A stretch of DNA of 64,000 nt from Paucidesulfovibrio longus DSM 6739 (GTDB taxonomy: Bacteria; Desulfobacterota; Desulfovibrionia; Desulfovibrionales; Desulfovibrionaceae), in NCBI RefSeq assembly GCF_000420485.1, contig NZ_ATVA01000017.1, positions 186,001-250,000 of the forward strand. The letters are read 5' to 3'. The notes beneath the pieces were generated by a model, which had not been told where the DNA came from, searched no databases, and saw only the letters and a list, made by a program, of their open reading frames with translations. The position numbers and the translations under genes were made by a program. Shown here one piece after another: positions 44,376-48,210 of the stretch; positions within the stretch are counted from its first letter, which is position 1, and every line of letters begins with the position of its first letter.

Positions 44376-45446
44376 ATGCGCGTTCTCGACTTCGCCCATC
44401 CCGACCCGCAGACGAAAACGAACGGGCCGCGACTGCGGCCCGTTTTTCTGCCCTTTGCGGGCTGTCCGCACCGCTGCGCCTTCTGCGGGCAGCATCTCCA
44501 GACCGGACAGCGCGCCCGGCCCCTGGCCGAGATGCACCGCGCGCTGCGGAATGATCTGGAATCCGCCCGCGCCGCCATGGCCGCCGGACAGACCCGCCCC
44601 CTGGAGCTGGCCTTCTACGGCGGCACCTTCACGGCCCTGCCCGATTCCGATTCCGGTCCCTGGCCCGAACGATTCCTGAACCTGGCCGCGGAATACCGCG
44701 CCCTCGGCGTGGTCGGGCGCGTGCGCTGCTCCACCCGGCCCGACCGCACCGATCCCGAAATGCTCGCCCGGCTGAAGAGCCTGGGGCTGGACATGGTCGA
44801 GCTGGGCGTCCAGAGCTTCGACGACGCGGCCCTGGCCGCGTCGGGAAGAGGCTATGACGGGGAAACGGCCCGAAAGGGCTGCGAGAACGTGCGCGCGGCC
44901 GGGCTGCGGCTCGGCGTGCAGCTCATGCCCGGGCTGCCCGGCGACAGGCCGGGCGAACCGGACGGCACCTTCCGGCGCGATATCGAGATGACCGCCGCGC
45001 TCCGGCCCGACGCGGCCCGGCTCTATCCCTGCCTCGTCATCGAGGGCACGCCCCTGGCGCAGACGTGGCGCGCCGGAGGCTACCGGCCCTGGTCCCTGGA
45101 ACGCGCACGCGCCGAGCTGGCCCACGGACTGGAGCGGCTCTGGTCGGCCGGCGTCCCGGTGATCCGCATCGGCCTGCACCCGGAAGCGGACCTGCTGCCC
45201 GGCATCCTGGCCGGGCCGTGGCATCCGGCCCTGGGGCAGATGGTCCGCTCCCTGGCCCTCTGCGCGCATGTCCTGGCGCGGGCGCGGGAACTGGGCAGCG
45301 GCCCCAAGAGCCTGCAAACGCCCCGCCGCTTCTCCGGCGAGATCATGGGCCACAAGCGCGAACTCTGGGAAAGGTGGAAGCGGGCGCGCATTCGCATCGA
45401 ATTTCATGAGGGAGAGACGTTTCGGCTGGCCCTTGCAACGCCCTGA
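44376..45446 (+). CDS. Radical SAM protein, Elp3-like without acetyltransferase domain
   Basis: A 356-residue iron-sulfur enzyme. The cluster motif GCPHRCAFCGQ (CxxxCxxC, about residues 29-39) binds [4Fe-4S] and AdoMet; LELAFYGGTFTAL and MVELGVQSFDDAALAASGRG follow as in the Elp3/YhcC group. Unlike Elp3 it has no acetyltransferase domain. The reaction is unknown. GGAG lies five bases before ATG 44376. Codons 16-25 form a perfect terminator hairpin (44421-44444), an unusual feature at the start of a coding sequence. Confidence 0.85.
   Translation: MRVLDFAHPDPQTKTNGPRLRPVFLPFAGCPHRCAFCGQHLQTGQRARPLAEMHRALRNDLESARAAMAAGQTRPLELAFYGGTFTALPDSDSGPWPERFLNLAAEYRALGVVGRVRCSTRPDRTDPEMLARLKSLGLDMVELGVQSFDDAALAASGRGYDGETARKGCENVRAAGLRLGVQLMPGLPGDRPGEPDGTFRRDIEMTAALRPDAARLYPCLVIEGTPLAQTWRAGGYRPWSLERARAELAHGLERLWSAGVPVIRIGLHPEADLLPGILAGPWHPALGQMVRSLALCAHVLARARELGSGPKSLQTPRRFSGEIMGHKRELWERWKRARIRIEFHEGETFRLALATP
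44421..44447 (+). terminator. Intrinsic terminator inside the radical SAM coding sequence
   Basis: Stem AACGGGCCGC with GCGGCCCGTT, loop GACT, then T run to 44447. It lies 57 bases past the aminotransferase stop and covers codons 16-25 of the downstream gene. Confidence 0.75.
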
Positions 45447-45453
45447 AACGCGA

Positions 45454-45518
45454 CCGCCCCGCTTTCGCGGGGCGGAAAACGGGGGTCCGGGGGCCACTGG
45501 CCCCCGGCCGCCGGAGGC
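45454..45518 (+). repeat. Composite intergenic repeat, partial copy 3
   Basis: Only the last two modules: a 9-bp hairpin (CCGCCCCGC, TTTC, GCGGGGCGG; 45454-45475) and module D (45481-45518), GGGGGTCCGGGGGCC continuing to GGCCGCCGGAGGC. It lies between the stops of the convergent radical SAM and DUF169 genes. Confidence 0.7.
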
Positions 45519-45556
45519 ATTCCCTCTCCTCCTGCCGTTTCGGTCTGAACGCTTGG

Positions 45557-46381
45557 CTATTCCTCGCCCCAGGCCTTGGCGCTGCGGGCGATCTTCTTCC
45601 GCTGGCCCTGCCAGGTCGCGGTGCTCAGGAACGATTCCTCCCAGCGCTCAATCATGTCCAAATACAGGGCGTAGGGCACGGTCATGTAAAGCTCGTCCGT
45701 CTTCAGGAACTTGCGCATGGACGGATCCCAGCCGCCGAGCACGGCGCGGGTGCGGCCCGTGGCCCGATACGTGCGCGGCCAGGAAACCATGTTGCCGCAG
45801 CCCGGTCCCCAGGGCGAGGCCACGACCTCGGCGTCGTTGGTCAGGAACGCGGCGTATTGATGCAGCCCGCTCATGCTTTCGGGCCGTGCGAAAAAGGTCA
45901 CGAATTCCGGGTCGTGCTTGAGCGGCTCGAAATCGCCGACCTTGCGGAACACGAGATAGGGATTGGGCGCGGGCAGAGGATCCATGCACTGGAACATGCT
46001 CTTGAAGGAATCCGGCCCGTCCAGGTAGTGCTCGGTTTCCATGCCTTCGGGCAGCCCGCAGCTGACGTAGCGGGCGATGAAGTCGTAGGGGCCTTTTTGA
46101 AAGCCCACGTACTGCGTTCCGCCGGGGCAGCCGGGATGGTCCGCGCTGGTCCAGGCCGCGCCGCCTTTCTTGCGCAGCACCCAGACGTGCTTGATCAGGC
46201 AGGAGAACCGCTCGAACGCCGGGCGGAAATCGGCCCGGCCCTTTTCCTCCTGTTCCAGGGTGGGCATGTCGCAGTCCGGGGGGTGGTTGTCGGAATCGGG
46301 CTTTTCCGCCTCGTAGGCCCAGGCGACCGGCTCTTCGGTGATGCCGAGAATGTCGAGGAAAGATTGCAGCTTGGAGTTCAT
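45557..46381 (-). CDS. DUF169 family protein
   Basis: A 274-residue soluble protein of the DUF169 group, of unknown biochemical role. It contains several cysteines (DCDMPTL, FSCLIKHVWVLRKKGG, DHPGCPGG, PWGPGCGNMVSWPR) and a C-terminal region DELYMTVPYALYLDMIERWEES typical of the family. The ATG at 46381 overlaps the stop of the MarR gene by four bases, with GGAGG just upstream, so both genes form one autoregulated transcript. Function may concern stress or redox chemistry; this is inference from the MarR link only. Confidence 0.82.
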   Translation of the reverse strand: MNSKLQSFLDILGITEEPVAWAYEAEKPDSDNHPPDCDMPTLEQEEKGRADFRPAFERFSCLIKHVWVLRKKGGAAWTSADHPGCPGGTQYVGFQKGPYDFIARYVSCGLPEGMETEHYLDGPDSFKSMFQCMDPLPAPNPYLVFRKVGDFEPLKHDPEFVTFFARPESMSGLHQYAAFLTNDAEVVASPWGPGCGNMVSWPRTYRATGRTRAVLGGWDPSMRKFLKTDELYMTVPYALYLDMIERWEESFLSTATWQGQRKKIARSAKAWGEE

Positions 46382-46887
46382 CGATCGTCCTCCGTGAGAG
46401 TGTTCAGGTTGGCGATCATACGCCTGGCGAGGTCGAAGAAGAGTTCGGCCTCCTCGGCGCTGAGTCCGCGTACGGCTTGCTTGTTGACTTGGTGGGCGGC
46501 GTCCAGCACCTCGACCTCCAGCGCGCGGGATTTCTCCGTGAGCAGGATGCGCGCGCTGCGCCTGTCCGAAGGGTCGGCCCTGCGGGTGATCAGCCCGTCC
46601 CGCTCCATGCGCGTCAGGGTCCGGGCCATGGTGGACTGGTCCACGCCCAGGCAGCGGCAAAGCTCGGCCTGGGTGCGCTGATCCTTTTCCCAGAGCCAGA
46701 CCAGGGTTCCGAACTGTCCGGCGCAGATGCCCAGCGGCTCCAATCGCCGGGCCAGCCGATTCATGAATCGCCGCGAAAGCTGGTTCGTCCAATACCCCGG
46801 AGCCTTCTCCCGCTGGAAGCAGCTTCCGAGCGCGGTTTCAGCGCAGTGTTCCGTTCCGGTTTCCATTGCAGATTCGATCGCAGTCAT
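46378..46887 (-). CDS. MarR-family transcriptional regulator
   Basis: A 169-residue winged-helix repressor. The DNA-binding part is TQAELCRCLGVDQSTMARTLTRMERDGLITRRADPSDRRSARILLT (recognition helix and the DPSDRRS wing motif), between N- and C-terminal dimer helices. GGAGG stands four bases before ATG 46887. The promoter right upstream holds two identical palindromes 20 bp apart, so it likely represses its own operon with DUF169. MarR proteins usually respond to phenolic or oxidising compounds; the signal here is unknown. Confidence 0.9.
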   Translation of the reverse strand: MTAIESAMETGTEHCAETALGSCFQREKAPGYWTNQLSRRFMNRLARRLEPLGICAGQFGTLVWLWEKDQRTQAELCRCLGVDQSTMARTLTRMERDGLITRRADPSDRRSARILLTEKSRALEVEVLDAAHQVNKQAVRGLSAEEAELFFDLARRMIANLNTLTEDDR

Positions 46888-46901
46888 CGGCCCTCCGAAT
46901 A

Positions 46902-46944
46902 CATGGCTTGCCATGAACATGCATGGCTTGCCATGCGTTGTCAA
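46902..46944 (-). promoter_or_regulatory. marR promoter with tandem operators
   Basis: On the minus strand a perfect -35 TTGACA (46939-46944) and a -10 CATGTT (46916-46921) with a 17-base spacer. The 14-bp palindrome CATGGCTTGCCATG occurs twice, at 46922-46935 (in the spacer) and 46902-46915 (from the -10 through the start of transcription), exactly 20 bp apart. Bound MarR dimers would sit on the same DNA face and block polymerase. Confidence 0.8.
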
Positions 46945-47007
46945 GCAGGCTTCCACGGGGCTTGATAGCCACCTCTTGCGAACCCGAAAAAAGAGGGGTG
47001 CGGCGTC

Positions 47008-47036
47008 TTTCAATTCGCGGCGAAAGCGGCTACACT
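47008..47036 (+). promoter_or_regulatory. Candidate amidohydrolase promoter
   Basis: TTTCAA (47008-47013) and TACACT (47031-47036; four of six -10 bases) spaced by 17 bases. Transcription would start about ten bases before ATG 47053, giving a nearly leaderless message. Confidence 0.4.
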
Positions 47037-47052
47037 TCGCGATTAAGCAATC

Positions 47053-48210
47053 ATGAGCACTCGAAACCTTTCGATTCTCCGTGCGGCCAGGGTCATGAGC
47101 ATGGTCCCCGGCCAGGAACCGATACGCGATGCGGCCATCGTTCACGATGGCCGTTTTATTGTGCAAATCGGCCCGTGGACCGAGCTGCGAGCGCGGTTCC
47201 GCGGCCCCGTGGAAGACCTCGGCGGGGCCACGCTCTGCCCCGGCGTCTTCAACAGCCACACCCACCTGGAGATGTGCCACCTGCTCGGCAAGACCGTGCG
47301 CGGCCAGGGCTTCACATCCTGGATCAAGAGCCTCGTGGCCAACCCCATGTACGACATGGACGACGCGGAGGTGGCCGCGCAGTGCCGACGAATCCGGCGG
47401 CTCGGCACGGCCCACGTCGCCGACATTTCCACGAAGCAGGCCCCTCGCATCGCCGGCGTCCTCGACGAATCCGGCCTTTTTTTTGTGGCCTTCCGGGAGA
47501 TGATCTTTTTCAGCCCGCCCCCGGACGAGCAGGACTTCGTTCCCGACGGGGAATTCGCCAACGGCGTGCTCTCCTGCGCGGGCCACGCGCCCTACTCCAC
47601 CCATCCCGAAACCCTGCGCCGGGCCAAGCGCGCCTGCGCCGCGCGCGGACTGCCCCACTCCATCCACCTCGCGGAAAACGAGGAGGAGTCGCGCATTCTC
47701 ATGGGCGAGCGCATCGAGTTCGTGGAGGTGCTGGAGCGCGCAAACATCCCCATGACCGGATTCAGGCCGCCGCGCGTCTCCCCCGTGGCCTACGCCCTGG
47801 ACCTGGGGCTGCTGGACCCGGACACCCTGGCCGTGCACTGCGTGACCGTGAGCGACGAGGACATCGACATCCTGCGCCGCACCGGGACCAACGTCTGCCT
47901 CTGCCCGCGCAGCAACGACTACATCGGCGAGGGCCGCGCCCCCTGGGAAAAGCTCCGGGCCGCCGGAGTGAACCTCTGCCTGGGCACGGACGGGCTGGCC
48001 TCCAACCACGATCTCGACGTCTGGAACGAGCTGGCCTTTCTCAAGGAACGCTTTGTGGACGAACTTTCCCTGGAAGACGGCCTCGCGCTGCTCACGCGCA
48101 ACCCGGCAAGAGCTTTCCGGGCGGAAAACCGCCTCGGCACGCTGGAGCCCGGCAAGGCCGCGCGCTGGTCCGTGGTTCCGGAAAACGTGCTCGCGCTGTT
48201 CGAGGCCTGA
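47053..48210 (+). CDS. Amidohydrolase (TrzA/SsnA/MqnX-like deaminase)
   Basis: A 385-residue metal-dependent hydrolase. Metal ligands are visible: HTH in PGVFNSHTHLEM (about residues 66-70), HLAENEEES, the histidine in LAVHCVTVSDEDI, and LGTDGLASNHDLDVW with the catalytic Asp. The pattern fits ammonia-releasing deaminases; aminodeoxyfutalosine deaminase of the futalosine menaquinone pathway is a reasonable option for this type of organism but not proven. No clear ribosome site precedes the ATG. It is divergent from marR (165 bases). Confidence 0.85.
   Translation: MSTRNLSILRAARVMSMVPGQEPIRDAAIVHDGRFIVQIGPWTELRARFRGPVEDLGGATLCPGVFNSHTHLEMCHLLGKTVRGQGFTSWIKSLVANPMYDMDDAEVAAQCRRIRRLGTAHVADISTKQAPRIAGVLDESGLFFVAFREMIFFSPPPDEQDFVPDGEFANGVLSCAGHAPYSTHPETLRRAKRACAARGLPHSIHLAENEEESRILMGERIEFVEVLERANIPMTGFRPPRVSPVAYALDLGLLDPDTLAVHCVTVSDEDIDILRRTGTNVCLCPRSNDYIGEGRAPWEKLRAAGVNLCLGTDGLASNHDLDVWNELAFLKERFVDELSLEDGLALLTRNPARAFRAENRLGTLEPGKAARWSVVPENVLALFEA

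Follow-up and report, generated by a model that had tools for sequence, protein, structure and literature searches.

The two-gene operon that encodes a MarR-family protein and a DUF169 protein is very probably controlled by its own first product, a MarR/SlyA-type autorepressor predicted to act on two tandem operators in its own promoter. A dimer of this protein would bind each of the two operators (ATG-N6-CAT core, 14 bp, 20 bp centre-to-centre), one between the -35 and -10 elements and the other over the start site. Dimers at these two places would shut out RNA polymerase, because they would occupy the -35/-10 spacer and the start site together. A small molecule would then loosen MarR and free the promoter, and marR and the overlapping DUF169 gene would be made together. 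We arrived at this reading from the exact and unique pair of sites, a shuffle null, conservation in three genomes and a SlyA-like geometry; this MarR as the binder, repression, ligand release and the exact start site are what we infer from the DNA. The features lie in a 64,000-nucleotide stretch (the window) from a relative of the sulfate-reducing bacteria:

45557 to 46381, minus strand: DUF169 (PF02596) gene (P0002), 274 aa; its start and the marR stop share 4 bp.
46378 to 46887, minus strand: marR (P0001), 169 aa, MarR family, SlyA-like.
46892 to 46896, minus strand: GGAGG, presumed ribosome-binding site of marR, read from the sequence.
46902 to 46915, minus strand: candidate downstream operator, the second copy of the 14-mer, immediately after the presumed -10 and covering the presumed start; position kept in 3 of 3 congeneric genomes.
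46916 to 46921, minus strand: CATGTT, presumed -10 hexamer, weak (3 of 6 against TATAAT) and missed by the promoter scan.
46922 to 46935, minus strand: candidate upstream operator, CATGGCAAGCCATG (minus strand), inside the -35/-10 spacer; exact match, at the corresponding position in 3 of 3 congeneric genomes.
46939 to 46944, minus strand: -35 hexamer TTGACA (46944-46939), perfect; TTGAC is invariant in the three genomes.

The first-pass annotation had reported two identical 14-mers 20 bp apart and proposed a genome-wide look for more copies. CATGGCTTGCCATG indeed occurs exactly at 46902-46915 and 46922-46935, 20 bp apart, and an exact 14-mer search of the whole 3.70 Mb genome returned 2 copies, both in the marR promoter. 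Searching the same genome for the exact 14-mer and for CATGGCNNGCCATG gave nothing beyond these two known sites. The operator is a dyad, CATGGC-TT-GCCATG, with 6 of 7 pairs matched. Counting dyads with 6-bp arms and a 0-4 bp gap, and pairs of them within 60 bp, we found the operators to be the sole pair of identical dyads no more than 60 bp apart in the window, also with two mismatches allowed. Short dyads abound (the window has 175 of this class against a shuffle mean of 159), which speaks for a chance or repeat-element origin. An identical pair, however, appeared in 0 of 60 dinucleotide shuffles of the window, and the limit of two genome copies and the conservation in three species also argue against such an origin, which we regard as exceedingly improbable.

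Read along the minus strand, TTGACA is followed by 17 nt of spacer that include one dyad; then come CATGTT, the other dyad, GGAGG and the marR ATG at 46887. One dyad had been placed in the 17-base spacer behind a perfect TTGACA, and this is confirmed: the spacer spans 46938-46922 and contains the upstream dyad. The placement of the other dyad over the start site stands in part. It lies directly behind the presumed -10, but the start is positioned presumptively, since this hexamer matches at 3 of 6 bases and no sigma-70-like promoter in 45400-47200 satisfied the criteria of the scan. The DNA helix makes one turn in 10.5 bp. As 20 bp is nearly two turns (~1.9), both dimers would sit roughly on one face, not exactly so as had been suggested.

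The conservation of the promoter was assessed within the genus in a small sample of three genomes: the window's, G147 and G199 (the MAG Desulfovibrio sp. STF2_139, locus L003). MarR stands directly before DUF169 in all three, and the congeneric MarRs are 65-67% identical to that of the window. The 4-bp overlap of the two genes recurs in 3 of 3 genomes and, with the Pfam matches of both products, bears out the earlier claim that the operon encodes MarR and a DUF169 protein. MarR matches at E <= 1e-22 were obtained in 8 of the order's 348 genomes, with those of the genus among them; the best match outside the genus, among the candidates scored (at most 10 per genome), was 43% identical over 119 residues. 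The three promoters align free of gaps, with TTGAC, a 14-bp site, 6 bp and a second 14-bp site before marR, and the operator spacing is 20 bp in each. The outer CATG columns are invariant at 15 of 16 positions, against 4 of the 21 remaining columns of the region (Fisher p 6.7e-6, for a column split chosen after the alignment was seen); the upstream flank, aligned without gaps, has 5 invariant columns out of 60.

The -35-side dyad reads CATGGCAAGCCATG, CATGCTATAGCATG and CATGCCATGGCATG in the three genomes, with 6, 7 and 7 of 7 pairs, respectively. These variants (GC..GC, CT..AG, CC..GG) show that the inner changes are matched on both arms. The perfect dyad of L003 and L005 is loop-free and is thus not a simple RNA hairpin. 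At the downstream site the half-sites are kept and the symmetry decays, from 6 of 7 pairs in the window to 5 of 7 in L003 and 3 of 7 in L005. This decay favors a variant in which just one site matters or both form one extended site. The same variant gains from the DNA coverage reported for one MarR-family homodimer, SCO3205, of some 24 bp (PMC3737563), which exceeds the 20-bp spacing; by analogy, the two dimers may contact each other, and may cooperate or interfere. The ATG and CATG of the downstream site are nevertheless invariant in 3 of 3 genomes and in the same register, with most bases between them changed. We therefore consider this variant, which overlaps the reading with two tandem operators, unlikely.

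The counts of CATGSYNNRSCATG sites in the three genomes of the genus are 5 (the window's genome), 14 and 9. Apart from the operators, none of the 5 in the window's genome has an all-A/T centre. A CATGSYNNRSCATG match on contig C38 of G147 was dismissed as an extra site and taken as the same locus, since the contig end duplicates the sequence around the marR promoter on contig C30. One other G147 match, between flagellin-like and HDOD-like frames (named by eye), is probably due to chance.

On its other side, marR is flanked by a divergent amidohydrolase gene (Pfam) that starts at 47053. This neighbor is present in the window and in L003 and absent from the 3 kb on that side in G147; the operator sites stay with marR although the other neighbor changes. 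Within the first 110 bases of the amidohydrolase gene, a hairpin with a 10-bp stem followed by TTTATT (47131-47154) looks like a terminator or attenuator inside a coding region; the dyad is also present in L003.

The assignment of the dyads to MarR gains from the conserved sites, spacing and matched inner changes, from their place in the promoter of the protein's own gene (by sequence and conservation) and from the Pfam identification of MarR; the operator role first proposed for them is retained as a prediction. The MarR winged-helix domain was recognized by PF01047 (E 1.6e-15, 57.1 bits against a cut-off of 24.6). The presumed recognition helix, QSTMARTLTRMERDGLI, is the same in all three congeneric MarRs. 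A search with P0001 gave three further MarR-like frames in the window's genome, and the dyads could accordingly be bound by a regulator encoded elsewhere, with the adjacent MarR controlling other genes. The sites, however, remain with marR-DUF169 in all three genomes despite the changing neighbor, and the exact 14-mer has no further copies in the genome. The closest paralogue (L037), 39% identical, is preceded by 260 bp in which no perfect dyad with 6-bp arms occurs. Binding by such a regulator is thus very unlikely, and the adjacent MarR is the preferred candidate.

The closest match among protein models and solved structures is SlyA of the enterobacteria. It is the best PDB sequence match of the window's MarR (3q5f, E 1.6e-16) and its best-scoring NCBIfam model, yet the score of 64.7 bits lies below the cut-off of 120 for a SlyA equivalog. 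The half-site geometry is shared, with three bases, six and three: TTA-N6-TAA as reported for SlyA (PMC5797941) and ATG-N6-CAT in the window. A SlyA consensus has been proposed, TTAGCAAGCTAA, and its centre, GCAAGC, is also that of the window's operator. The outer triplets differ, and in the window a local two-gene operon is preceded by a tandem pair of identical sites. SCO3205 of Streptomyces coelicolor is likewise a MarR-family protein with two operators, but its sites lie in the 119-nt region between sco3204 and sco3205, whereas the window has its pair within a single promoter ahead of marR, and the DUF169 gene follows downstream on the same strand. According to a review (PMC5487221), MarR sites are often easily spotted as palindromes in marR promoters, and identification of the ligand may be hard; this description fits the present case. 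The switch is textbook in kind, of a common chemical-sensing type, here placed before a gene of unknown function.

In an unguided dyad-pair scan of 12 marR-DUF169 promoters, the best spacing was 20.0 bp in 1 of them, the window's own, whose score was reached by 1 of 300 shuffles. Other dyad pairings scored higher in L003 and L051. Among the nine promoters of other genera the scan gave no common dyad spacing, and the scores of 4 of these were reached by at least 18 of 300 shuffles. A general spacing rule for marR-DUF169 operons was accordingly discarded. By eye, L054 and L055 carry two TGACA/TGTCA dyads ~19 bp apart before their MarR genes, different in sequence and similar in layout.

The DUF169 protein matches PF02596 over residues 10-245 (99.4 bits against a cut-off of 27). 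Across the order we obtained 49 matches at E <= 5.4e-40 in 48 of 199 genomes, the window's own included, and some match at E <= 0.001 in 72 of 199. These 49 matches and L003 make up 50 loci; one copy, L090 (G078:C1:380854-381318), is interrupted by two stop codons. In 12 of the 50 loci, DUF169 is closely preceded on its own strand by a MarR gene, at distances from a 4-bp overlap to ~180 bp (3 in the window's genus, 5 in g10, 2 in g6 and 2 in g9). A divergent LysR gene is found upstream in 14 (g7, g8, g14). Outside the genus, the gene is thus adjoined by distant MarRs (9 of 50 loci) or by the divergent LysR, in which these Desulfovibrionales differ from the window. Sigma-54-type regulators immediately precede the gene in L061 and L096 and are divergent from it in L058, and L079 has its MarR downstream on the other strand. 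Family assignments rest on Pfam for P0001, L054, L060 and L072 (MarR), L066 (LysR) and L061 (sigma-54), and on similarity grouping for the others. The MarRs of other genera are at most ~35% identical to the window's over stretches of at least 100 residues.

Two regulator profiles, run over 32 stretches (534 kb), gave 12 matches, 10 of which directly adjoin an orthologous DUF169 gene. Of the stretches, 20 had been chosen because they contain such a gene, and the profiles, built from the same regulators, lean towards them. With frames read as shadows of regulator genes set aside, regulators form the largest neighbor groups (14 and 9 loci), and the next, among the groups listed, reach at most 6 of 50. 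A divergent nitroreductase is found beside DUF169 in L052 (Pfam) and L053 (similarity), and a downstream molybdopterin oxidoreductase in L068 (Pfam) and L070 (by eye). A CecR-type TetR regulator lies near DUF169 in a group of 4 loci, identified by Pfam in L072. Read by eye, L072, L077, L082, L084 and L085 show the order MarR, DUF169, TetR-like frame (4 of 5) and efflux-adaptor-like frame; Pfam gave no match for the partial efflux-adaptor-like frame of L072. Twelve stretches around more distant DUF169 genes contained at least 14 shared frame groups. Because orthologues in other genera also adjoin local regulators, DUF169 looks like a repeatedly rewired, inducible gene.

The first-pass annotation had expected the MarR ligand to give a first clue to DUF169 function. 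It would not be the very first, since a nitrate-fitness phenotype is already published for another DUF169 gene: interruption of Dde_0597, a DUF169 gene of Desulfovibrio alaskensis G20, was reported to raise fitness in nitrate (2.25), and the gene sits in a 'nitrate cluster' with a TauE-like neighbor (PMC4001038). A further DUF169 gene, Shel_07530, is found in a table of the YedE section of a second source (PMC5322559). The other papers found for DUF169/COG2043 carried the term in neither title nor abstract.

The AlphaFold2 model of the DUF169 protein is confident (mean pLDDT 94.1). Foldseek against the PDB gave no chain at E <= 0.001. With VIA-align the best match reached Z 5.8 (153 aligned, rmsd 4.6), against the Z of 8 that the tool advises; the 50 matches listed, all below Z 8, were all thiolases or trifunctional-enzyme chains. 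We found no sequence support for a thiolase relation, and a thiolase-like fold is a lead only, suggested by the model. Sequence searches gave no credible relative of a solved structure: the phmmer PDB rows for tau (E 0.00093, in which no stretch passes on its own) and TB39.8 (E 0.46) were taken as chance. No internal duplication was detected by hhalign at four cut points. All 41 DUF169 proteins that were aligned, from among the 50 loci, have Cys61, Cys85 and Cys195. Speculatively, and with rather low probability, DUF169 might be a protein induced for stress response or detoxification, perhaps a thiolase-like enzyme of small size that uses these three cysteines, whose gene has been captured repeatedly by local ligand-sensing regulators of different families, the sensor here being this MarR. 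If this is true, the MarR ligand would be the DUF169 substrate or a related toxic compound.

Taken together, the observation behind the first-pass annotation was right and its interpretation largely right. The value of the finding is the handle on DUF169, more than the switch itself: a clean, unique and conserved operator pair provides a simple reporter for the DUF169 inducer. In several genera DUF169 is found with local regulators, a sign that what is learned of this inducer could extend to a widespread, uncharacterised family.
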